DNA of 57,507 nt, from the IMG/VR virus record IMGVR_UViG_3300045944_000157, positions 1-57,507 of that record; one strand, written 5' to 3'. A program made the position numbers and the translations under genes. The notes under the pieces were generated by a model. The model did not search any database. It was not told where the DNA came from and was given only the letters and a program-made list of their open reading frames with translations. The DNA comes from a virus. Of this stretch, positions 21,470 to 57,507 are shown piece by piece (the first letter of the stretch is position 1; each line of letters opens with the position of its first letter).

Positions 21470-21766
21470 TTATAAATGCGCCGCTTTTCTGAGGAGAAGA
21501 TTTATCTTCGCCTGCCAGCCCATGCCGCTTTTGCGGAAATGTTCGAGGATATCGTTATCCAGCCAGATTGTGACGCGGCTCTTGCGAGATGAGTGGAAGC
21601 GTCTGTCGGCCTTTGCAGGATTTTTCGGAATATCGACGTTTTCGACTTTATTTTGCACAGGCTCCGGCAAATCCGTTTCCTCTTCCCATGGCTGCTTTTC
21701 GATCTGCCGAATTTCCGATTTTTTTTGCAGAAAAATTTTTGGTTGGTATTGCCTCGACAGGCTCAT
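21470..21766 (-). CDS. BrnA/ribbon-helix-helix-like regulator
   Basis: 98 residues from the ATG at 21766, preceded by GGAGGGAAATAAC. The C-terminal part (residues ~63-98: RVTIWLDNDILEHFRKSG, MGWQAKINLLLRKAA) is the BrnA antitoxin / ribbon-helix-helix pattern (VTIxLDxDxLxxF+xxGxGxQxxINxxLR). The N-terminal part is charged and disordered. It lacks a BrnT toxin partner nearby. The palindromic repeats just upstream (21790-21870) are the obvious target of autoregulation. Family is recognised; toxin-antitoxin function is not supported. Confidence 0.75.
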   Translation of the reverse strand: MSLSRQYQPKIFLQKKSEIRQIEKQPWEEETDLPEPVQNKVENVDIPKNPAKADRRFHSSRKSRVTIWLDNDILEHFRKSGMGWQAKINLLLRKAAHL

Positions 21767-22278
21767 GTTATTTCCCTCCGGAATTGCTGTACATACGTAC
21801 TGTACGTACAGGATGTATATACATACTGTATGATACAGGACGGACAGTACGTACTGTATCAGACTGTACGGGATTTGTGAAATTTTGGATCGGGTGTCCG
21901 GGTTAGTATGTATCGCGTGACGCACACGCGCCTGCACGCGCGGGGGCTACGTATGGGTGGGGGGTAGTACCCCCCACCATGCGCACATACTACATGTGGG
22001 GTCCATGCCCTACGACCCTGTGTCCTGATTATCCAATGAAATCAATGGGTTAGTGTACATCTAAGTGATTGTAGTGATAGCGAACTGCACTCGAAGAGTG
22101 CACAGATTACAGTGTCACCCCATTGTTGTTGTCTCATTCTCTCTCTTACATCTTGATGTAAGAGAACCAGTGCTATCCCCTTATCCCCTCCTCTCACCAT
22201 GTACCCTCAGTACCCTTAAGGGACTGAGGTGTGTGTGGTGATTGGCCTTCCATTGTCTTGGTGCCGACAGTCATCTCG
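21767..22278. other. non-coding regulatory region between RHH-like gene and terminase small subunit
   Basis: No gene is supported here. Besides the operator cluster (21790-21870) the stretch holds a GC-rich palindrome (21956-21978, GGTGGGGGG paired with CCCCCCACC), a 7-bp hairpin (22085-22101), an 11-bp hairpin (22142-22165, TCTCTTACATC type) and a 7+3-bp hairpin (22205-22229). Repeated GTACT-type words are dense. The region lies between a regulator and a terminase gene and marks the left edge of the hairpin-dense zone. Confidence 0.6.
21790..21870 (-). promoter_or_regulatory. operator cluster upstream of the RHH-like gene
   Basis: Four TACTGTA/GACTGTA-type half-sites at 21798-21804, 21824-21830, 21852-21858 and 21862-21868. 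They lie inside several overlapping palindromes: TACGTAC-T-GTACGTA (21794-21808), ATGTATATACAT (21813-21824), CTGTAT-G-ATACAG (21826-21838) and ACAGTACGTACTGT (21844-21857). Such clustering is typical of multi-site binding by ribbon-helix-helix dimers. They lie 24-100 nt upstream of the start codon, covering the likely promoter. Confidence 0.75.
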
Positions 22279-22863: not shown

Positions 22864-23404
22864 CGTGTCCTAAACCCTATGGGGGTTTAGAAATTCTAGT
22901 CAGAACCCCGATGATTTGCCAAGTGGTCCGGCTCCAATACCCAAGGGGATTGGAGCGTCTGCGGGGGCGCATCATGCCCGCATCATGACGCGAGTTTTCT
23001 TCACGCCTGTTTCCCTACGCATTATGCGCAGGAGAAATCGCGCATGGAAAAAGGCTTGCCATTTGTCGTCCGGTTTGGGATTGTTTGGGGGTCGAAAGCA
23101 GGATTGCTCCGACAGCGGAAAGCCGGATGGCTCCCGCCAAAAAGCATCTCTCCGGAGAAACCGGGGGCCGCAAGCACCGCTGTGAAGCGAAGCTTGGTGA
23201 AGGCAGAACAAATCCGGACAGTTTTGCGGCGATCATGGATAACGAAGTGATCGAAAGTCAGCGAAGCTGGTCGTGGCAAAGAGCAATCTTGTGATGCTTT
23301 GCCGCCCACACTCCTCCTCACGATTGCTGCGGGATCAAGCTGCAAACTCAGCAAAAGCTGAAAGGCGAAGCTTGGTCCTTCAACAATCCTGAAAGGATTA
23401 CGTT
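22864..23404. other. non-coding stretch upstream of the small-gene operon
   Basis: No convincing gene: frames are open but lack good ribosome-binding sites, apart from a weak 68-codon frame at 23044-23250. The stretch holds strong hairpins: 22870-22890 (CTAAACCC/GGGTTTAG) and 22931-22956 (8+3 bp with an A/G mismatch). It should contain the promoter of the plus-strand operon; I could not place it with confidence. Confidence 0.5.
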
Positions 23405-24010
23405 ATGACGAAAACTGCCAAAACCGTTGCCAAGTCGGAAGTCTCCTCCCGTGAGGAGCTGCTCGCCAGCGTCTCACAGTTTGAATTTCAAACTTGTGAG
23501 ATCGTCGGCGGACGGAATTTCCCCATTGGGGAGAAATTCGACTGCATCAAGGTCGGGGTTTCCGGCTACGGCAAGCCCTACACGGTCATCTCCGTCAACG
23601 GAGAAGACCGGTTCTGCGATCCGAAGAACCTCAAGGTTCTTAAGCCGATGACCGAAGCCAAGATCGCCGCCGCTAAAGCGGCGCTGGAAGAGGCAAAAGA
23701 GGCAACCCTGATCGTCGGCGGAACCATCAAGAATGAGAGTGAGAAAGCAGTTCTCATCTCTCATCATGGCTGGTTCAAGCCGAAGTGGTTTCCCAAGTCT
23801 CTGGTCACCAAGATTGGTGACCATGAAGACGGCGAGCAGAACCTCTATGAGGTTCCTCGTTGGAAAATCCATGCCGATCATGGTCCGGCTGGCGTGAAGG
23901 CTCTCGCGGCACTCCAAGATGGCTATGAAGCCATGTTGGAGCCGGAAGAAAAGCCGGAACCCAAGGTCGTCGTCCGTACCGGTAAGTATACCGGTAAGGT
24001 CAAGAAGTGA
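23405..24010 (+). CDS. unknown protein 1 of the hairpin-rich operon
   Basis: 201 residues from the ATG at 23405, behind AAAGGA. Mixed helix/strand sequence: a basic N-terminus (KTAKTVAKSEVSSREELLAS), a segment GEKFDCIKVGVSGYGKPYTV, an Ala/Lys helix (AKIAAAKAALEEAKEA), a GWFKPKWFPKSLV line and a Lys-rich tail. No family recognised. The coding sequence holds at least eleven hairpins (e.g. 23472-23501, 23583-23610, 23624-23641, 23802-23823, 23977-23996), giving near-palindromic codon runs. First gene of a tightly spaced operon. Confidence 0.7.
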   Translation: MTKTAKTVAKSEVSSREELLASVSQFEFQTCEIVGGRNFPIGEKFDCIKVGVSGYGKPYTVISVNGEDRFCDPKNLKVLKPMTEAKIAAAKAALEEAKEATLIVGGTIKNESEKAVLISHHGWFKPKWFPKSLVTKIGDHEDGEQNLYEVPRWKIHADHGPAGVKALAALQDGYEAMLEPEEKPEPKVVVRTGKYTGKVKK

Positions 24011-24088
24011 TCTCTGAAAAATCGCATGACCTCCCCTCCGAAAGGAGGGGAGAGCGGGCGATTTTGCCCTGAATGAGGAGCCAACAAA
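24011..24088 (+). repeat. conserved hairpin intergenic element, copy 1
   Basis: Fills the gap between two small genes. An 8-bp outer stem (24018-24025 with 24058-24065) encloses a perfect 9-bp hairpin with a GAAA loop (24031-24052). Then a GGGC-N6-GCCC segment and GAGGAGCCAA (24075-24084) precede the next ATG at 24089. The outer stem reads AAAATCGC/GCGATTTT here and differs from the other copies in a compensated way. Confidence 0.85.
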
Positions 24089-24265
24089 ATGCCATTTGAT
24101 CCCAATGATCTCGCTGAAATGCTCTTGGTAAAAGAGCACTTCATCGATGAGCGAAACTTCGCCATGTCGATGCGGGATTGGCCGAAAGTTTCTGTCATCC
24201 GACAGAAACTCAAGCACGTTGAAAACCGGATTGCTTCGATCCGGTTTCAGCAAAAGACCGCCTGA
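24089..24265 (+). CDS. unknown protein 2 of the hairpin-rich operon
   Basis: 58 residues, helical and charged (DPNDLAEMLLVKEHF, DWPKVSVIRQKLKHVEN, RIASIRFQQKTA). No family recognised. Ribosome-binding site GAGGAGCCAA. Contains perfect hairpins at 24120-24138, 24187-24210 (10-bp stem, ATCC loop) and 24223-24247, which together cover much of the 177-nt gene. Confidence 0.65.
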   Translation: MPFDPNDLAEMLLVKEHFIDERNFAMSMRDWPKVSVIRQKLKHVENRIASIRFQQKTA

Positions 24266-24331
24266 GAAATTGCATGGGATGGGGTCCACTGGACCCCATT
24301 ACGGGCAATTTCGCCCTTTTGAGGAGCCAAA
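24266..24331 (+). repeat. conserved hairpin intergenic element, copy 2
   Basis: Outer stem GAAATTGC/GCAATTTC (24266-24273 with 24305-24312), inner hairpin 24279-24299 (9 bp, ACT loop), GGGC-N6-GCCC segment, and GAGGAGCCAA at 24321-24330. The inner stem sequence is unlike copy 1 but remains perfectly self-complementary. Confidence 0.88.
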
Positions 24332-24586
24332 ATGCAAGTTCTCACGAAAGCACAGAAACTCGCTTTGAAGCGAGTTTTTGATCGGACGCCTCTTTTCGTC
24401 CTTTGGGACGGAAAGTGCTTCATGCCGACTTCCACCGAAGGGTGGAATGCTCACAAGAGACTGGATCAACCGACAATGACCTACCGGTCATTTCGGTACA
24501 CCGCAGTCACCAGCTTTGGGACGTTAATCGTCCCATGGTGTGGAATGTGGCTGGCCATCGAAACCGATGGCTACACCCACTCTTAG
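24332..24586 (+). CDS. unknown protein 3 of the hairpin-rich operon
   Basis: 84 residues, mixed helix/strand with several aromatic residues (QKLALKRVFDRTPLFVLWDG, PWCGMWLAIETDGY). No family recognised. Contains hairpins 24356-24377, 24392-24415, 24430-24447 (GAAG loop), 24482-24498, 24517-24535 and 24554-24571. Preceded and followed by conserved hairpin elements. Confidence 0.62.
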   Translation: MQVLTKAQKLALKRVFDRTPLFVLWDGKCFMPTSTEGWNAHKRLDQPTMTYRSFRYTAVTSFGTLIVPWCGMWLAIETDGYTHS

Positions 24587-24657
24587 AGATCGCATGATAT
24601 CTCCTCCGACTTGTCGGAGGGGATAGCGGGCAATCTCGCCCTATTGAGGAGCCAAAA
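24586..24657 (+). repeat. conserved hairpin intergenic element, copy 3
   Basis: Outer stem GAGATCGC/GCAATCTC (24586-24593 with 24630-24637) with one C-A mismatch, starting at the last base of the TAG stop. Inner hairpin 24599-24624 (11 bp with one G-U), GGGC-N6-GCCC, GAGGAGCCAA at 24646-24655. This is the only copy with an unpaired position in the outer stem. Confidence 0.83.
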
Positions 24658-24993
24658 ATGGTTGGAATGCTGAACATCGGTACAGTGTCCCATGGGACAC
24701 TGCGTCCGCAAGATTTGCTCCGTAGGTTTTCCCAAACCTACGAGCAATACTTCAGCGATGAAACGGATTACAATCCGTTTCTTTACATGGCAGCTAACTT
24801 GTTAGCTGCCACTCTGGATGATCTCGAAGGAGATCATGTTGCCGACCACATCTATGAGCATGTCGATTATACAATCGACAAGCTTATAGAGAAGCTGGAA
24901 GGCTTGGCTTCCCGTCATAACTGTTACTTCGGAACCACCGAAGGTGACGGTTCGGATTTCGGCTTCTGGCCGAATGAAGGCGGCGAAGCTTAG
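24658..24993 (+). CDS. unknown protein 4 of the hairpin-rich operon
   Basis: 111 residues, mostly helical in the middle (LLAATLDDLEGDHVADHIYE, HVDYTIDKLIEKLEGLAS), with an acidic Gly-rich tail ending NEGGEA. No family recognised. At least ten hairpins: 24683-24702, 24717-24745, 24760-24781, 24788-24811 (11-bp stem), 24818-24837, 24861-24880, 24881-24896, 24897-24912, 24927-24943 and 24958-24974. It is the densest stretch of the region. Confidence 0.65.
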   Translation: MVGMLNIGTVSHGTLRPQDLLRRFSQTYEQYFSDETDYNPFLYMAANLLAATLDDLEGDHVADHIYEHVDYTIDKLIEKLEGLASRHNCYFGTTEGDGSDFGFWPNEGGEA

Positions 24994-25065
24994 GAATTGC
25001 ATGACTTCCCCACTGAGAAATCAGTGGGGAATGCGGGCAATTCCGCCCTGAATTGAGGAGCCAAG
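24993..25065 (+). repeat. conserved hairpin intergenic element, copy 4
   Basis: Outer stem GGAATTGC/GCAATTCC (24993-25000 with 25037-25044), starting at the last base of the TAG stop. Inner hairpin 25006-25031 is 11 bp, perfect, with a GAAA loop. GGGC-N6-GCCC and GAGGAGCCAA (25055-25064) follow. Compared with copy 2, two outer base pairs change on both sides (AA/TT to GA/TC), a compensated change. Confidence 0.88.
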
Positions 25066-25287
25066 ATGACTGAAAGAGCACAACTTTTCGCCCAGAGACT
25101 TCGTGATCTGGACGAATGCATTGCTGAAAGCAAGGCATCGGAACACTACGATCCGAAAAACGACTACTGGACCCATCTCAAAGAGATGGAAATTCAGGCT
25201 TTCGCCAAAGGCGATGGTGTCGTTTGGCGGGTCAATGACCGGCCTTACATCGTCTTCGATACCATCGATAGCCGATGGTATTCCTGA
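25066..25287 (+). CDS. unknown protein 5 of the hairpin-rich operon
   Basis: 73 residues, helical N-terminus (RAQLFAQRLRDLDECIAESK) and beta C-terminus (GDGVVWRVNDRPYIVFDT). No family recognised. Contains hairpins 25087-25116 (9 bp with one mismatch), 25116-25138, 25173-25189, 25202-25214, 25230-25240 and 25258-25282 (9-10 bp). Confidence 0.62.
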   Translation: MTERAQLFAQRLRDLDECIAESKASEHYDPKNDYWTHLKEMEIQAFAKGDGVVWRVNDRPYIVFDTIDSRWYS

Positions 25288-25355
25288 GAAATTGCATGGG
25301 ATGCCCTCTCTCAGAGAGGGCATTACGGGCAATTTCGCCCTTTGAGGAGCCAAAC
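25288..25355 (+). repeat. conserved hairpin intergenic element, copy 5
   Basis: Outer stem GAAATTGC/GCAATTTC (25288-25295 with 25329-25336), inner hairpin 25301-25323 (10 bp, TCA loop), GGGC-N6-GCCC and GAGGAGCCAA at 25344-25353. The TGA stop of gene 5 abuts the element. Confidence 0.88.
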
Positions 25356-25535
25356 ATGATCCTGCTTTGGATATCGACATATATGTCGATCTTCACGATG
25401 GGAATTCTTGCCATCATTGTGGGGACTTCCCCACAATTCGGTTGGCCGGAATATTCCGCCACCATTCTTGCGATACTTTTCGGTATCGGCGCAGCAACGA
25501 CGTTGCTGGAAATTGGTCGGAGGGAACGTCGATGA
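25356..25535 (+). CDS. small membrane protein 6 of the hairpin-rich operon
   Basis: 59 residues from the ATG at 25356, which follows the conserved RBS. Two hydrophobic segments (IFTMGILAIIVGT and ATILAILFGIGAATTLL) suggest two transmembrane helices, with a basic tail. Hairpins 25373-25390, 25397-25415, 25416-25437 (9 bp, ACTT loop), 25447-25458, 25471-25488 and 25492-25508 fill the gene. The next gene starts on its stop (ATGA). Confidence 0.6.
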   Translation: MILLWISTYMSIFTMGILAIIVGTSPQFGWPEYSATILAILFGIGAATTLLEIGRRERR

Positions 25536-25615
25536 TCTACATTCTTGTTCCAGTGATAGCTTTGCTATCGTGGTACATCGTTTATCTCGAAACAACGAAA
25601 GGAGATCGCAAATGA
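25532..25615 (+). CDS. 27-residue membrane mini-protein
   Basis: ATG at 25532 overlaps the upstream stop; TGA at 25613-25615 overlaps the next ATG at 25612. Peptide MIYILVPVIALLSWYIVY followed by LETTKGDRK: one membrane segment. A hairpin at 25550-25573 lies inside. Overlapping start and stop codons on both sides argue for translation. Function unknown. Confidence 0.55.
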   Translation: MIYILVPVIALLSWYIVYLETTKGDRK

Positions 25616-25917
25616 AATGTCTCCACTTCGTTGGTTTCACCAACGAAGAACAAATCAGGAAGGCTTCCCGAATATTCGGGGAGCCTCATTTCATACATCC
25701 CAAATGGGATGTCAGAGCCGAGCAAGAATTGGATGTAGACGATGTAATCGTCTACGCCAATGGAACACCGAGGAGAGCGGAAGAACGTGAGTTCTTCCTG
25801 AGTGTGGGCGGCAAGCAAGGGGGTGGGCGCATGATGCGCCTGCCCCCTTTTTTTTGCTCAAAATTCAGCTACTATCGCAGACATGCGCTACATACCCGGA
25901 TACGAAGAACGCTATAG
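25612..25917 (+). CDS. unknown protein 8 of the operon; frame crosses a terminator
   Basis: 101 residues if read to the TAG at 25915. The first ~70 residues look folded (CLHFVGFTNEEQIRKASRIF, WDVRAEQELDVDDVIVYANG); the last ~30 are encoded by the terminator and by sequence overlapping the HNH gene, and are of odd composition. If transcription stops at the terminator, the message ends without a stop codon. A plausible reading is that the natural 3' end was lost or replaced when the HNH gene was inserted. Hairpins 25626-25648, 25661-25686, 25695-25712, 25735-25755 and 25779-25798 precede the terminator. Confidence 0.5.
   Translation: MKCLHFVGFTNEEQIRKASRIFGEPHFIHPKWDVRAEQELDVDDVIVYANGTPRRAEEREFFLSVGGKQGGGRMMRLPPFFCSKFSYYRRHALHTRIRRTL
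25817..25855 (+). terminator. strong intrinsic terminator ending the small-gene operon
   Basis: Fifteen-pair stem (25817-25831 with 25835-25849, including two G-U pairs and a 3-nt loop) followed by eight T residues. It is the clearest terminator in the window. It lies inside the reading frame of the last small gene and just before the HNH gene, so it insulates the operon from it. Confidence 0.85.
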
Positions 25918-26230
25918 AATAGATCAAAACGGCAATGTTTTCTGTAATCATAAGAATAGATTTCTGAAACCAACCCTGCACCCTTCAGGGTATCTATTTG
26001 TGTCTCTAGCAAAAGGGACAAAAAATTATCCATTGCGAAAGCAATACAAGATCAATTACTTAGTCGCACTTACTTATATCGGACCAAGGCCAAAGGGCTT
26101 GGTCTGTTGCCACAATGATGGGAACAAACTCAACAATCACCTCTCGAATATCAGATGGGACACCCAAAAATCGAACATCCACGATGCAATCGTGGCCGGT
26201 ACGTTTACCGGGCGACCACGTAAGCACTAG
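25883..26230 (+). CDS. HNH homing endonuclease-like protein
   Basis: 115 residues. A NUMOD4-like start (YIPGYEERYRIDQNGNVF) is followed by strand segments and an HNH core (GLVCCHNDGNKLNNHLSNIR, then WDTQKSN): His in CCHNDG, the Asn in NKLNNHLSNIRW, and the NIRW-x-T finish of the HNH_3 family. Such proteins cut DNA at a homing site and spread themselves. The composition is AT-rich and distinct from its GC-rich neighbours, pointing to recent transfer. It begins inside the last codons of the previous gene. Confidence 0.8.
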   Translation: MRYIPGYEERYRIDQNGNVFCNHKNRFLKPTLHPSGYLFVSLAKGTKNYPLRKQYKINYLVALTYIGPRPKGLVCCHNDGNKLNNHLSNIRWDTQKSNIHDAIVAGTFTGRPRKH

Positions 26231-50957: not shown

Positions 50958-51019
50958 AGGAGATGGATAGTTCTTCCGAACTATCCTCTGATGGCGGCGG
51001 TCAATCGATTGCCGCCATC
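50958..51019. terminator. convergent-gene hairpins
   Basis: Two hairpins lie between the repressor and the giant protein gene: GATAGTTC-TTCC-GAACTATC (about 50966-50985) and GATGGCGGC/GCCGCCATC (about 50990-51019, spanning the giant gene stop). Neither has a long U tract, so bidirectional termination is only plausible. Confidence 0.4.
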
Positions 51020-54000
51020 ACTTCATTGGCGCGTCCAACGAGATTGTCCTGACGATCCTTCAGCATCTTGATCCGCGCTTCCCTGCTCTCCTCGGTGCCC
51101 TTCTTGCTTTCCCTGATCTTCTTGATCTTGGTGCTGATCTTCTTGCGGGCATTCTCAAAGGCGTTGATGCGGGCGGCGATCTTGTACTCCTTCGGATACT
51201 TCTGGATGATCGACAGGTACATCGCATCGTCGTTATCCCTGCGGGCATCCTTCATTGCCTTGTGTACGCGCAGCACCTGATCCCTGCCCTCAATGTAGTC
51301 CTGTAGGTCGTTGCGCGTGGTGATGGTGCCGTAGGCTTTGCGCAGGAACGGAATGTCGGTGGCTTCGATCTCCATCTCCGGCAGTTCGCCGGTCGCCCCG
51401 CCATACATCAAGCGACCGGCGCGGGCCAGAAATGTCCCGGTGCCACCGGTAATCCAATCGACTGCATACTCGACCTGATTGGGGGAGTACTCCATCTTGC
51501 CGGGTATGTAATCTCCCTGCCGACCGGTTAGCTGGGACATCCAGTCCGCGATGGAAACAAACAGCGGATGGGTGTTGTTCCAGTATTGCTGGCTGCGGTT
51601 TTCTCCAACGTTATCATAGGGGCTGACCGGTGGCGCGATGGGCTTGCCGGTGAAGTCCTCATTCATGTAGAGGTCCACTACCGGGTCGATAATCGATGGT
51701 ACCACCCAGTTGAGGAAGGAGTTCGATCCGCCCATCGGGTTGAGGCTGTCGATCATCGTCATGCCGCCCGTGCTCATCAGTTCACCCATCGTGTACTTGC
51801 CACGCGCGGCACGGGACGAGGCGCGGCCCCAGTTGTAGATGCCGTTCATCAGGTACGGCATCGGTATCTTGAAGTAGCCGCGCTCACTGATGCCGAACGG
51901 GTCCATGAACACCATGTTATGTTCAAGCACGTGCGGCGGTATCTTGTCGTAGGTCTTCTCTCCGTCATCGTCTTCCGGGGAAAGCGCCGACATCAGCATG
52001 TCCTGCACGGCACCGGCTGCAAGCACCGACGCCCAGACATACTTCATCCGGCGCGAGCGGATGAACGGGTTGAGCAGCGCCATCGATCCCTGCATCGACG
52101 CATTGAAGAACATGTAGAAGGCGGTCATCATCGGTTTCATCTCGCCGCCCATATTGAAGTTGACGGTGAGGTTCTTGGCTGCGAATGCCGCCATCTCCTT
52201 TGCCCGCAACTGGTTCTGTGCATCGTGCGGGTCACCGCTGAGTTCAAGGTACTGGTCCCGAAGAACCTTGTAGGCGGCGAGACGGGTGCCGTTTTCAATG
52301 GCAAGGTTGTAGTCGGAGATAAACTTGCCAAGCGCCTTGAGCGGCTTCAGAACTTTGTGTTTGGCACCGGAGACATCCTCGGCCAGATGCTGGTTGATGT
52401 GGTCGATGGTGTCAGCCAGTTCACGGATGCCGAAGACGGCGGTATGTCCGCCATGCCTGCGGAATTCCTCATGCACCTTGGCCCACTCGCCGGTCGGGTT
52501 GCCGGAACGCAGCGACTGCCGCACCCCGTTGAGTGCCGGGAGAACCGAAGCGATCACCTTGCGGCGCACACCCTTGCGCTTCTGCTCGGACAGGTTGACC
52601 ATCGCCGCCTCAAGGTCGCGCAGCATGTTGGCGATCATGAACTCCGGATTGTAGCTGGTGCGGGTGGCGGCAAGGAACCGGTTGACTGCCGCCAGACCTT
52701 TGATCAGGGAGTGCATGCCGGTGTTCGAACCCAGCCCGGACTTCGATCCCATCGCCCTGACGATCTTGTCGTCTTTCATCTTGATGTAGAATTGCTGGCC
52801 ATCGACCTTGCCCTTGAGCACGGTCGGATCGGTCATCACCTGATTGTCCACTGACTGCACGACGGTGCCGGTCTTGACATCGTACCGGTATTTGGTCCTC
52901 GGCATCTGAAGGATTTCCGCCACGCCCGCCATCTGCGCCGGGTTGTCGAGGATCAGCTTGCGGAACGACTGCGCCACCTTGTTCTTCCCGGCCCGCACAA
53001 TCGTCTCTTGGTTCTGCATGATGGCGTGGGCAATCAGGTCACGGCCCATGCTTTCGCGGCCAAGGGCTGAGTAGTCTTCCTTACCCCTGATGTTGAAGCC
53101 CTTGCCGGTCTTGGCAAAGTCGGACATGTCCTCATCCCTGAGAGATGCTTCGCCAAGGAAGCCACGGATCGGCACGTAGTCCTGATAGGTATCGACCGGG
53201 GTGCCGTCCGGATGCAGCAGGGTGCGGAAGTCGGGGGTCAGTCCGGATGCCACGCGGATGTCGTTGGTGGACCTGACGATGGCCCGCATGCGGGAGCGCA
53301 CGGAGTTCGGATTGGTCGGCTCCATGAACTCCCGTGCAAATGGTTTGGTGGCAAACCAGTCGAGCACGGCCTGCGCCTCACCGTCACCCATGCCGGACCC
53401 GGCTTCGTACTGCATCGGTCGTTCGCCAGCGATGCGCTCGTTGCGCTTCTTCATCAGCGCATTTCGCTCCAGTGCATGCTGTGCATAGAGATAGAGTTCA
53501 GCCAGTGCGTGCTTGTGGTTGACCTTGTAGCCGTCGAGGAAACCGGCAACCCTTGGCGAGATGGTGCGTGCTTCGTCGTAGTCCCGGCGGGTGACGCTCA
53601 AGCCTTGGATGGTGTCCATCATCGGCTTGTAGAAGTCCTTGTCGTTGGCGGTCAGATGGGCGTCGGTCTGGCTGGAGTACAGTTGCTCCCTGAGATAGAC
53701 ATCGTTCTCGTTGGTGATGAAGCCGCCGTTCTTTTTCATGCGGTCGATCAGCCTGCCAATCGACAGCATGCGGTCCTGCAAGGAGATGATGGTGTCGTCG
53801 GCCTTCTCCTTCAGGAGAGCCTTCTGCCTGCCGCCGGGGATGGTCCAGTCGATCAGCTTGTGCAGGACAGGAGACAGGTTGTCGTAGGTGATCCTGTTGT
53901 GGACTTCGGACAGCCTGTCGATGGGTGGCACGGGCGGCACCCGTGTTCCGGTCGGTGCCGCCGCCGAATACTGTGGGTTTGCCTGCGCCTGTGCCTGCCG

Positions 54001-57000
54001 GACCATGGAGAAGAAAGGCTGGTCGCCCTTCTCGAAACTGTCCATCATCGGCTGAGTGAACATCAGGTCGTAGGTGTCGAGAGGAACGCCACCCTTCTGT
54101 TCGTCCATCCCCATCGCGGCATCCAAGCCACGATAGTAGTCGCCGTGCGCATGCCAAGACAGAACATGGTTGATCTCGTCCCGCTCCAGTCCGGCGGATT
54201 TCAGGATGTCATCCGGATCATAGTTGCGCCGGTTGCGGGTGACGTGCATCGCCGTCTTCAGCTTGTCGATCAGCGTCTCCGCGTCCTGCTTCTCGCTGTC
54301 GTGCTGGTACACGTCGTCATGGATGTTGTCCTGATGGTTTTTGTGCAATGCATTGATGAAGTCGAACATGTCTTCCCGTTCAGGCAGGGCTTCGGCGGCA
54401 CTGAGAGACGGTCCCTCGTCTATCCCCAGTTCCCACGGCTCCGGCTCCCACGTCGGAGGACGATCCCTGCTTTGCACGACTGAGTGCTCAAGAACTGCAC
54501 CGAATGGATCGGCAATGCCGCGTGTGATACGGGGAAGCTTGAGAAGGTAGCGGTTGACGATGGGTGAGACGGAGACATCTCCATAGGCGGTGTACTGGTT
54601 TCGCCCCTTCTCGTCCTGTGTCGTTTCCAATTCGCCATAACCCTCTGTCACGGCAACGCTTTCCGGAGAGCCGTGCCATGAGATGCCGTCATAGCCATGC
54701 TCGACTGCATGCCGGATCATGCGGCGGATCACATAGTCTTCCCAGTTCGATTTGAAGGGAGCGTTGGGGATAGCCAGTCGTTCCCGCGCCGCAGCCATCT
54801 CTTGGACCACATCGCTGTGCTCTTTCCTGACGGCATCGATCTGCGGTCCAAGATCGACCATTTCCTGTAGTCGCTCCTGCACCTGTCTGCGGTTGGTGAG
54901 TAGCCGCTCGTTCACCGCGCCACCGGTTTCGGCGCGTATCCTTTTCTCCATCTGTTGCAGCATCCATATCTGGTCAGCGATGACGACCTTCCTGCCTTCC
55001 AATTGGCGTTGCTTGTCGTAGAGAGCACGCGCCTCATTTCCCAACTGTTCGTACTTGGCTACGGCTGACTTGGAGTAGTAGCCAACCTTCGACCCCCGCT
55101 GATGAAGGTCGGACTGCATTTCCTCAAGGAACATGATACGTTTGCCGTCCCGTTCCACGTCCCTGAAACGGACGAAGGCCAGCACGTTCTCAAGCTTTCG
55201 CCTACCCTTGCCTGCGGGCACTGTCATGTGCCCGTTCTTGTCGAAGTAGTCCGGCTCCCCTTCCTTACCGGGGAAGGTGAGCGCCACTTCGGCATAGGTC
55301 TTGTCGGCCTTGCTGGTCTGGCTGCGCTCCACCCACTGCGGGCTGGATATCGCCGCTTGACCCAAGTCGGGGTGTGCCGGGTTGGCAAAGACGACAGCAC
55401 GCACATTGGGTCCGGACGCCTTGACGAAGTTCATGATGTCGTTGCGGTGGACTTCCTCACCTTTCGGCAAGTCCTGTAGCCACTGCTTGATGCCCAGCCA
55501 GTTCAGTTCATCCGGCTTGATCCCGGCACTGGACAGCATCTTGATCCAGTCATTCTTCGGTGCCGTCTCACGGGTGACCTTCTCAAGGAAGCGCATGGTG
55601 TCGAGATAGAAGTTGTCGGTCTTGAGCAGCGAGTAGGTGATGTCGTCGGGACCGCGCGGACCCAGCCCGCCATGACCAATCTCACGGTCGGCAATGCCAC
55701 CGGAGAAGATGGTGTCCATCAGGTCGGCGGCATCGTGCCGCTGCGACAGCCGCATCATCTTCTTGATGAAGTCGGCTATCTTTCTCAGCAGGCTGCGCTC
55801 CGGATTGCGGAACGCGGTCGGGTCGTTCATGTAGTGCCGCGCCATCTCGGCAATGGCTTCCTCGGCAAGGATGTTGGAGCTGGAGCCTTCGGCGCGGATG
55901 GCTGCGCGTTGCAGCCATGTGTACTTCTTGCCGGGAACCTTGGCGTTCACCGCATGCTGGAACAGGGTGTCCCATTCCTGCGGAGTAAGGAGATCAAGGC
56001 TGCGTAAGGCATGGATCAGTTCGTGGTTGAAGACCTGTTCCATCAACTGAGCACGCTGCTCGGTGGTCAGGTTCGGATTGTAGAGATCGTTGGCAATCCG
56101 GATCAGGTTGCCGATGACCCGCTTCATGCCATCCGGATCGGTGCGCTTGATGTCCTGTGAGGTGCCTTCGACAATACCGTCCGGCGCTTCTGGGTTGGTC
56201 AGCCGTGGCAGGATGCCGACATCCACCCGTCCCTTGCCCAGAACCTTTTCGCCGTAAGCTTTCAGGCTGTCGGCAACCGGACCCACCTGCTTGGTGAAGT
56301 CCTCCTCGATTGCCGCCTGCTTCTCTTCCGCTGTCTGCTGTTCTTTGTGCTGATTGCTTTCCGGGGAGTAGGCGGCATCGAAACCCTTCAACGCTTCGGT
56401 GGCTTCGTTCTCGGTGACGAATGTCTTGAGCAGCGTGTCACTGACCGTCCGCTGATCCTTGCCGGGGATGTGCTCATGCTGGAGTTCATGGATGCCGTAC
56501 TGAATACCCTTCGGGTCTTCGCTTACGGTGGCTTCCTTCTGCCGGTTGGCCGGGATGTTCTTGTCGATCCAGTCAAGCGCCTCTTCGCGTGTGGCAAAGT
56601 TCACCTTGCGGCCAACCTTCTTACCGTCCATCTCGACGGAGAACGGCTTCGCATCGGCTGACTGCACCGCTCTGACGACATACTCACGGGTGCGCCGCTT
56701 GCGCCCCTTGCCCGTCTTGTCCACCGTCTCGCCGGTTCCATGCGGTTCAATGATCTTGATGTACTGGTCCTTGTTGCCAGCCGCATGGGCATCGCCACGC
56801 TTCAGTATCTCGTTGAAGTAGGCTTCTGCCATCGGCTTGGAGACGCCCAGCGTTTTCCTGATCCTGTCGATGGACAGAGTGCCCTTGTCCCGCAAGGCGA
56901 CGACGGATTTCTTGTAATCGGTTTCGCTGATCGGTGAGACTTCCTCACCAATCTTCGGTGTCGCCGTTACCCGGCTGGCCTGCGGTGCTGATCCCTCCTG

Positions 57001-57507
57001 CGTTGTCTCTGAACCAGCAGCCGCAACACGCGGCGACATTCCGGTGACAGCGGACTTGTTGATGACGGCGTACTCGGTGCGGCCCTTCGGGCCAGTGCCC
57101 GCCACCACACCGTAACCTTGGTTAGCCAGTTCATTCATCCGCTCCTGTGTCAGCCCGATGATGGTGCCCTTCTGGCGGAAGATTTTGGTGCCGGGGGCGA
57201 TGTCCACATTATAGACGGTGGGTGTGCCGCCCATCCTGCGGGAGAAGTTCTCGGCCTGTGACAGGTCTTCCTCGGCATGGCCGAAGAACCCGGCATAGAG
57301 ACGGCCCTTCTTTCCGGGTCTGTCATGGATGAGGTTGATGCGGTCCTGCGTCAGTTGCGCATCGCCGGTTCCATGGATCAGCCGCATGCCCTCCTTGCCA
57401 ACCAAGTCCGGCACGGCGTGCGGCGATAACGGGGCGGAAGGGACTGGTGCAGGGGGCGCTGGAGGTGGCGGCTTCGGTCCTTCGGTTTCCGTATCCTTCA
57501 GACCGGC
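51001..57507 (-). CDS. giant polyvalent virion protein (partial)
   Basis: The frame is open from the stop at 51001 to the window edge, so the start lies beyond it; 2168 residues are visible. Near 57130-57410 an ART-like segment reads RLIHGTGDAQLTQDRIN and GGTPTVYNVDIAPGTKIF. A winged-helix-like segment follows (56800-56950). A zincin motif HELIH lies near 56020, then a FLEEMQSDLHQRG line near 55120 and VEHGYDGISWHG near 54670. The C-terminal part (about 51000-52700) with NPEFMIANMLRDLEAA and KPMMTAFYMFFNA matches the LPD38-type region. Polyvalent proteins are injected with phage DNA to protect it and modify the host. Confidence 0.8.
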   Translation of the reverse strand, partial: AGLKDTETEGPKPPPPAPPAPVPSAPLSPHAVPDLVGKEGMRLIHGTGDAQLTQDRINLIHDRPGKKGRLYAGFFGHAEEDLSQAENFSRRMGGTPTVYNVDIAPGTKIFRQKGTIIGLTQERMNELANQGYGVVAGTGPKGRTEYAVINKSAVTGMSPRVAAAGSETTQEGSAPQASRVTATPKIGEEVSPISETDYKKSVVALRDKGTLSIDRIRKTLGVSKPMAEAYFNEILKRGDAHAAGNKDQYIKIIEPHGTGETVDKTGKGRKRRTREYVVRAVQSADAKPFSVEMDGKKVGRKVNFATREEALDWIDKNIPANRQKEATVSEDPKGIQYGIHELQHEHIPGKDQRTVSDTLLKTFVTENEATEALKGFDAAYSPESNQHKEQQTAEEKQAAIEEDFTKQVGPVADSLKAYGEKVLGKGRVDVGILPRLTNPEAPDGIVEGTSQDIKRTDPDGMKRVIGNLIRIANDLYNPNLTTEQRAQLMEQVFNHELIHALRSLDLLTPQEWDTLFQHAVNAKVPGKKYTWLQRAAIRAEGSSSNILAEEAIAEMARHYMNDPTAFRNPERSLLRKIADFIKKMMRLSQRHDAADLMDTIFSGGIADREIGHGGLGPRGPDDITYSLLKTDNFYLDTMRFLEKVTRETAPKNDWIKMLSSAGIKPDELNWLGIKQWLQDLPKGEEVHRNDIMNFVKASGPNVRAVVFANPAHPDLGQAAISSPQWVERSQTSKADKTYAEVALTFPGKEGEPDYFDKNGHMTVPAGKGRRKLENVLAFVRFRDVERDGKRIMFLEEMQSDLHQRGSKVGYYSKSAVAKYEQLGNEARALYDKQRQLEGRKVVIADQIWMLQQMEKRIRAETGGAVNERLLTNRRQVQERLQEMVDLGPQIDAVRKEHSDVVQEMAAARERLAIPNAPFKSNWEDYVIRRMIRHAVEHGYDGISWHGSPESVAVTEGYGELETTQDEKGRNQYTAYGDVSVSPIVNRYLLKLPRITRGIADPFGAVLEHSVVQSRDRPPTWEPEPWELGIDEGPSLSAAEALPEREDMFDFINALHKNHQDNIHDDVYQHDSEKQDAETLIDKLKTAMHVTRNRRNYDPDDILKSAGLERDEINHVLSWHAHGDYYRGLDAAMGMDEQKGGVPLDTYDLMFTQPMMDSFEKGDQPFFSMVRQAQAQANPQYSAAAPTGTRVPPVPPIDRLSEVHNRITYDNLSPVLHKLIDWTIPGGRQKALLKEKADDTIISLQDRMLSIGRLIDRMKKNGGFITNENDVYLREQLYSSQTDAHLTANDKDFYKPMMDTIQGLSVTRRDYDEARTISPRVAGFLDGYKVNHKHALAELYLYAQHALERNALMKKRNERIAGERPMQYEAGSGMGDGEAQAVLDWFATKPFAREFMEPTNPNSVRSRMRAIVRSTNDIRVASGLTPDFRTLLHPDGTPVDTYQDYVPIRGFLGEASLRDEDMSDFAKTGKGFNIRGKEDYSALGRESMGRDLIAHAIMQNQETIVRAGKNKVAQSFRKLILDNPAQMAGVAEILQMPRTKYRYDVKTGTVVQSVDNQVMTDPTVLKGKVDGQQFYIKMKDDKIVRAMGSKSGLGSNTGMHSLIKGLAAVNRFLAATRTSYNPEFMIANMLRDLEAAMVNLSEQKRKGVRRKVIASVLPALNGVRQSLRSGNPTGEWAKVHEEFRRHGGHTAVFGIRELADTIDHINQHLAEDVSGAKHKVLKPLKALGKFISDYNLAIENGTRLAAYKVLRDQYLELSGDPHDAQNQLRAKEMAAFAAKNLTVNFNMGGEMKPMMTAFYMFFNASMQGSMALLNPFIRSRRMKYVWASVLAAGAVQDMLMSALSPEDDDGEKTYDKIPPHVLEHNMVFMDPFGISERGYFKIPMPYLMNGIYNWGRASSRAARGKYTMGELMSTGGMTMIDSLNPMGGSNSFLNWVVPSIIDPVVDLYMNEDFTGKPIAPPVSPYDNVGENRSQQYWNNTHPLFVSIADWMSQLTGRQGDYIPGKMEYSPNQVEYAVDWITGGTGTFLARAGRLMYGGATGELPEMEIEATDIPFLRKAYGTITTRNDLQDYIEGRDQVLRVHKAMKDARRDNDDAMYLSIIQKYPKEYKIAARINAFENARKKISTKIKKIRESKKGTEESREARIKMLKDRQDNLVGRANEVMAAID

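Follow-up and report, generated by a model that had tools for sequence, protein, structure and literature searches.

A hairpin-threaded operon of a tailed phage whose transcript might be selected for local double-strandedness

Results

The operon and its relatives

The IMG/VR virus record IMGVR_UViG_3300045944_000157, analysed here in its full length of 57,507 bases (hereafter the window), contains, at about 23385–25855, an operon of eight small genes that is threaded by dozens of short, perfect hairpins. The threading is real, is kept across relatives, and is organised along the sense transcript. The source phage is tailed, with genes for the terminase large and small subunits, a portal, a tail fibre, a primase/helicase, an HNH protein, and a phage integrase, and the integrase gene makes it probably temperate. 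The operon is self-contained, comprising a probable promoter, a structured leader, the eight genes, and a terminator. For densities and shuffle comparisons, hairpins were counted as non-overlapping and perfect, with a stem of at least 7 base pairs (bp) unless stated otherwise and a loop of 3–8 nucleotides (nt).

Searches with gene 1 of the operon identified the relatives L018 and L007, with 76% and 70% identity, and a search with gene 3 identified L031, which is 69% identical in gene 3 and 30% in gene 1. The terminase small-subunit gene (terS) lies divergently beside the operon in all four phages, and the gene content of the operon is partly different among them. Two further contigs represent the same phage as the window, with one base difference. 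No isolated phage proved to carry the operon: relatives of window genes 1 and 4 and of gene 1 of L031 were absent from the phage records searched, plasmid records being outside this search, and no prophage in bacterial genomes carried gene 1.

The probable promoter region and the untranslated leader of the operon occupy 23040–23404 on the plus strand, which also carries all parts of the operon described below, according to an alignment of four leaders and a motif scan; the promoter position is predicted. At about 23117–23134, the leader has a bulged hairpin, GGA-AA-GCC-GGAT-GGC-TCC, whose position is conserved among the four phages and whose arms show paired changes; its general form, GGA-AA-GCN-NNNN-NGC-TCC, is seen at 23110–23140 of the window and in the L007, L018, and L031 leaders. 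Another hairpin, AATCCTGAAAGGATT (23385–23399), holds the gene 1 Shine-Dalgarno sequence within it and is identical in L007 and L018. The entire operon leader of 300–400 nt looks like an undescribed structured RNA. A short element, ATCGTCCGG, occurs near gene starts (window 21417, 26283, 26916, and others) and in the promoter region of the relatives' operons, possibly as a shared promoter or operator.

Gene 1 (23405–24010; 201 residues) holds 10 hairpins with stems of at least 6 bp and has relatives in the three other phages. It is followed by the first of five copies of an intergenic structured leader, all recognised by alignment and pair counts; in this copy (24016–24084), a helix, P1, surrounds a GAAA-loop hairpin, P2, and GAGGAGCC comes next. 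Gene 2 (24089–24265; 58 residues), with relatives in L018 and L007, has three hairpins (24120–24138, 24187–24210, and 24223–24247). The second leader copy (24266–24329) precedes gene 3 (24332–24586; 84 residues, five hairpins), which has homologues in phages of Rhizobium, Sinorhizobium, and Agrobacterium, and the third (24589–24655) precedes gene 4 (24658–24993; 111 residues, eight hairpins), a member of the widespread phage family phrog_29605. The fourth copy (24994–25063), which includes an 11-bp hairpin with a GAAA loop, leads to gene 5 (25066–25287; 73 residues, two hairpins), and the fifth (25288–25353) to gene 6 (25356–25535; 59 residues, four hairpins), coding for a probable small membrane protein. 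Gene 7 (25533–25615; 27 residues), identified from the sequence, is followed by gene 8 (25612–25857; at least 82 codons, five hairpins) and by an intrinsic terminator at 25815–25855, recognisable as a G+C-rich stem and then eight T. The frame of gene 8 (25612–25917) is open through this terminator, so a terminated transcript would be missing its stop codon; the gene might be truncated, the sequence might contain an error, or the arrangement might be real. HNH endonuclease genes of differing types stand at the 3' end of the operon in the window (25883–26230) and in L018 (7754–8191). The HNH gene included in the L018 operon is threaded too (seven hairpins of at least 6 bp in 438 nt), whereas the one past the window terminator is far less so.

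The genes of the operon are without known function and gave no PADLOC match. The model of the gene 1 product contains SH3/KOW-like barrels at low confidence (predicted local distance difference test score, pLDDT, 62), with weak hits to KOW, NusG, and ribosomal proteins, none of them convincing. The gene 4 family has an invariant GDGSDFGFW motif and a confident model (pLDDT 91), for which structure comparison gave no named match. At 57 other phage loci with gene 4 relatives, hairpins were only mildly enriched, with 2.7 times the expectation near gene 4 and 2.1 times far away from it. As gene 4 loci elsewhere are near background, the threading is tied to this operon and lineage and not to the gene 4 protein. 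The densest loci with gene 4 relatives (L161, L149, L148, and L175) have 10–13 hairpins per 2 kb. In L161 (5100–6900), several similar palindromes of the GACAGC..GCTGTC type, scattered over genes and intergenic regions, probably represent a small family of mobile repeats. In the G+C-rich phage L149 (5880–8600), repeated intergenic elements precede successive small genes, each with AATGCGG ... CCGCATT flanking a variable hairpin and then GGAGAGTAG, an analogous repeated RNA leader.

Elsewhere in the window, a BrnA-type antitoxin gene lies at 21470–21937 on the minus strand, and the region just upstream of it (21780–21860) is rich in short palindromes (TACGTACTGTACGTA).

Hairpin density compared with chance and with other genomes

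Between 23443 and 25855, 54 hairpins have a stem of at least 5 bp, 44 of at least 6 bp, 33 of at least 7 bp, and 20 of at least 8 bp, compared with 3.6, 0.8, and 0.2 expected from dinucleotide shuffles of the operon region for the last three thresholds. Their centres are spaced by a median of 49 nt, and their loops are very uniform, with 3–4 nt and C-G closing pairs. The rest of the window mostly has 0–3 hairpins per kb. The threading is not strictly limited to the operon, since a mild enrichment extends to the divergent side with terS.

The coding parts of the operon alone contain 28 hairpins of at least 7 bp, whereas codon-preserving shuffles gave about 2.0–2.1 (maximum 5 in 200). In six genes taken as controls from this phage, eight hairpins were counted against 3.3 in their codon shuffles. 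Observed and expected numbers in the coding parts were 28/2.1, 23/2.0, 7/0.7, and 12/1.4 in the four phages, and the three relatives are threaded at 22–44 times the expectation. The maximum per 2 kb was 31, 27, 22, and 16 hairpins in this family of four, compared with 13 among 152 phage loci that are unrelated or only distantly related (1.44 Mb in total), nearly all of which had 0–8. Per kb, the four operons have 9.5–13.5 hairpins, Lambda 0.5, T7 0.1, the first 49 kb of N4 1.1, MS2 2.0, and Qbeta 3.1. Minimum-free-energy z-scores of 120-nt pieces were -4.0, -3.8, -3.6, and -3.4 in the four operons and mostly 0 to -1 outside them; in the comparison with MS2 and Qbeta, these two gave -2.55 and the operons about -3.5 to -4.1.

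These numbers bear out the initial annotation, which had described about fifty unrelated hairpins and had proposed shuffles and sliding folding energies as checks. All 29 coding hairpins that it had listed fold at their coordinates, and codon usage, which it had named as a refuting alternative, does not explain the excess. The intergenic leaders aside, the only internal similarity of the operon region is a single short match that looks like chance. Its claim about loop sequences was correct for the intergenic part, where 8 of 17 tetraloops are GAAA, and not for the coding part, where only 3 of 48 are GNRA. Neither chance nor base composition, neither codon usage nor a mobile repeat of palindromes can practically be the source of the threading, as both kinds of shuffles and the 152 loci fall short of it and the stems are unrelated in sequence.

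Intergenic structured leaders

The intergenic leaders fold into the 8-bp helix P1 enclosing the 9-bp hairpin P2, with the consensus GAGGAGCCAAA. In seven aligned copies, 98.3% of the cells are paired, 12 of the 17 pairs have changed on both sides, one-sided changes are rare, and none of 500 shuffles scored as high. An alternative GGGC/GCCC hairpin, which would exclude P1, is kept in all seven copies. L007 and L031 have a different two-hairpin leader. Rfam gave no match at gathering score in the window, and all matches in the operon were sub-threshold.

What is conserved among relatives

In codon alignments of the four phages, some hairpins keep both their position and their pairs, some keep the position but have other pairs, some have moved by a few bases, and some lie elsewhere. 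At one site, the window has AGTTTGA-ATT-TCAAACT, L007 has GGTCTGG-AATT-CCAGACC, and L031 has an overlapping hairpin, GCATTTCAAGG-AAAA-CCTTGAAATGC. Where both partners of a pair have changed, 58% of the pairs are still Watson-Crick among close relatives against 34% of control pairs, and 38% against 32% among distant relatives. Individual pairs thus last only for short times, and the density lasts for long times. Density is conserved while single hairpins relocate, alter their sequence, and re-form. Hairpin axes avoid the codon phase in which third positions face each other and first and second positions would have to pair; 9 of 70 axes lie in this phase, compared with 28% in shuffles. Such avoidance is expected when pairing is adjusted mostly through third codon positions. 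The proposal that local self-complementarity itself is maintained on top of protein coding is supported. The feature withstood the codon shuffles in four phages, and relatives form hairpins anew from different sequences at identical or nearby sites.

The hairpins might instead act as binding sites or as a scaffold for a phage or host protein that recognises small hairpins by shape. Such a protein would coat the transcript and serve its regulation, localisation, stabilisation, or packaging. The regular spacing and the uniform loops with C-G closing pairs would suit such a protein, and the KOW/SH3-like product of gene 1, with its modelled barrels and weak KOW, NusG, and ribosomal-protein hits, would be a candidate. 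However, neither the loop nor the stem sequences of the coding hairpins are conserved, and the low confidence of the gene 1 model and its unconvincing hits also speak against the idea, which we regard as rather unlikely.

Another explanation is a mutational bias, in which transcription-associated template switching (quasi-palindrome correction) copies one arm into the other in a highly transcribed operon, so that the hairpins need not be useful. Template switching is known to make and repair perfect stems (PMC8794818), and in yeast, quasi-palindrome mutation can depend on a high level of transcription (PMC3820800). The operon has few G-U pairs and few one-sided changes, which fits either arm copying or selection for very stable stems. 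Two hairpins look as if one arm had been rewritten; in gene 3, changes fall on the left arm in the window (7/9) and on the right arm in L031 (6/9). Overall, the arm asymmetry in lineage-specific hairpins was 1.26 against 1.30 in the control, at a divergence too high for a sharp test, and arms changed at 0.116 per site compared with 0.138 outside them. Neither the hairpin-free ribosome windows nor the even spacing and GNRA loops described below are predicted by arm copying. We consider this explanation unlikely and disfavour a purely mutational origin, while template switching may supply the raw material for hairpins.

Organization along the sense transcript

Within -15 to +15 of 18 internal start codons, the hairpin coverage was 6%, compared with 32% at random positions (none of 5000 samples was as low). 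Just outside, it rose to 63% at -45 to -20 (none of 5000 as high) and to 52% at +20 to +35 (p 0.016). The hairpins abut the footprint of an initiating ribosome yet leave the footprint free. After the terminator, the density fell from 18 to 4 per kb in the window, and from 11 to 2 and from 13 to 3 in the other two of the three phages with flank available. The gaps between hairpins were more even than random in three of the four operons (p 0.001, 0.0004, and 0.0004; 0.10 in the fourth), which fits a rule against long unpaired stretches. Among the intergenic tetraloops, nine were GNRA in the sense and none in the antisense orientation, and the sense strand folds slightly more stably than the antisense strand in all four operons. 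Taken together with the covarying leaders, these observations implicate the sense transcript, in line with the earlier suggestion that the loops point to RNA.

A role at the DNA level, in which a site for replication or packaging next to terS would be flanked by cruciforms or by hairpins of single-stranded DNA, might account for the strict Watson-Crick pairing, the many small perfect inverted repeats, and the mild enrichment of the divergent terS side. It predicts neither the drop at the terminator nor the avoidance of start codons nor the sense-strand GNRA loops, and appears very unlikely to us.

The hairpins might also control translation, either by pacing ribosomes or by coupling each gene to the translation of the preceding one, in the way known from single-stranded RNA phages. 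In three of the phages, a hairpin includes the gene 1 Shine-Dalgarno sequence, and the intergenic leader can form the alternative hairpin that excludes P1. The remaining ribosome entry windows are hairpin-free, though, and dozens of movable hairpins would be unnecessary for pacing. This role is distinctly unlikely as the explanation of the threading.

Discussion

We suggest that selection keeps the transcript locally double-stranded except at the ribosome landing sites, and that this probably denies single-stranded RNA to Rho or RNases; we assign a probability of about one half to this reading. A more far-reaching version, which we put forward tentatively and with less confidence, is an armoured messenger, in which the nascent transcript has no long exposed single strand and evades the host's surveillance of single-stranded RNA (Rho, RNases, or RNA-guided defence) by the density of interchangeable hairpins.

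Perfect short stems with small loops fold during transcription. The small perfect hairpins with loops of 3–4 nt would thus form on leaving the polymerase, and with one hairpin per about 50 nt, no long single-stranded stretch might become exposed. Host factors and processes that need single strands, such as the loading of Rho, cleavage of the RNase E type, pairing with antisense or guide RNAs, and R-loops, would be starved, and the operon would be transcribed to its end into a long-lived message. The silencing of foreign operons by Rho and the entry of RNase E are the leading candidate targets and our tentative first choice, singly or together; the data do not separate the two. Phages are described as evolving devices against Rho (PMC3526286). 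Among the roles that the initial annotation had offered, a structured and protected mRNA would fit best. Template switching gained no support from the arm-by-arm substitutions, and the evidence speaks neither for nor against a decoy for an RNA-sensing defence.

Several observations weigh against the proposed selection for a double-stranded messenger. Translating ribosomes would melt hairpins in the coding regions, limiting any shielding to untranslated or nascent RNA. The placement of RNase E-like motifs gave no clear signal, with 44 in 2503 nt compared with 78 in 5493 nt and no shift towards the stems. The energy gap between the sense and antisense strands is small and resembles the bias elsewhere in the phage. 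G-U pairs make up 7–10% of local pairs in the operons and 8–13% in control genes, and stems containing G-U exceed the A-C control only slightly and in numbers too small to decide the strand, a signal weaker than that of typical conserved RNA. Only four distinct phages are available, all of them uncultured. The avoidance of U-tracts after hairpins gave no clear signal.

Conserved RNA structure is usually recognised by fixed base pairs, whereas selection here seems to act on the amount of local pairing in a coding transcript, whose hairpins can change position. Should this be confirmed, the operon would represent an RNA-level layer of phage expression or counter-defence that is invisible to protein and RNA-family searches, and nature would have supplied a blueprint for mRNA protection. 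The operon would then also be a clean test case for selection and template switching as sources of perfect stems. In a limited search of the open-access literature, we found no description of an operon of this kind in a DNA phage.

Comparison with known systems

Mobile repeats of the repetitive extragenic palindromic (REP) or miniature inverted-repeat transposable element (MITE) type do not match the operon, as the coding hairpins share no sequence and only the five intergenic leaders are alike. Integron attC sites, imperfect inverted repeats between cassettes with RYYYAAC and GTTRRRY boxes, were likewise rejected, since the seven aligned intergenic elements have no invariant boxes of this kind. 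The hairpin promoters of N4-type virion RNA polymerases are small and similar in sequence and come with the polymerase gene. The hairpins of the window are unrelated in sequence; in a scan covering part of the open reading frames, the 2137-residue protein of the window matched LPD38 and not a polymerase. This giant protein with its LPD38 domain is encoded at 51001–57414 on the minus strand.

The start-associated sequences (SAS) and extended SAS (ESAS) of cluster K mycobacteriophages (PMC3203893) resemble the intergenic leaders in being repeated inverted-repeat elements just upstream of small phage gene starts. However, ESAS are imperfect 17-bp repeats for which the authors find little support for RNA pairing, while our leaders covary strongly and the genes are threaded too; the SAS is a 13-bp sequence at the start, GGGATAGGAGCCC, unlike the leader consensus given above (PMC3203893). 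The making of RNA hairpins by template switching (PMC8794818) and transcription-associated quasi-palindrome mutation (PMC3820800) would offer a mutational way for perfect stems and double changes to arise. The overall signature of arm copying is missing here, and the layout tracks ribosome entry sites.

In the post-transcriptional control of T4, with RegB, RegA, and leader hairpins, mRNA structure can likewise block nucleases or control initiation, and secondary structure protects T4 mRNAs from RegB (PMC3014915). These are single hairpins at single genes without an operon-wide design. MS2 and Qbeta (Leviviricetes) also have protein-coding RNA with many local hairpins in bacteria, albeit with fewer perfect hairpins (2.0 and 3.1 per kb against 9.5–13.5) and a weaker z-score (-2.55). 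No operon gene gave a Pfam or PHROG match to a Leviviricetes coat, maturation, or replicase protein.

The operon also resembles genome-scale ordered RNA structure (GORS) of positive-strand animal viruses, in which folding lowers recognition by host RNA sensors. In both cases, local folding pervades the coding RNA beyond the expectation from codons and composition and is retained as the sequence diverges, and the four operons show the strength of folding beyond randomised controls that marks GORS (z about -3.4 to -4.1). The structure, however, covers one mRNA operon of a DNA phage, the rest of which is near background, instead of a whole RNA genome, and it is built from tiny perfect hairpins in place of long irregular stems.

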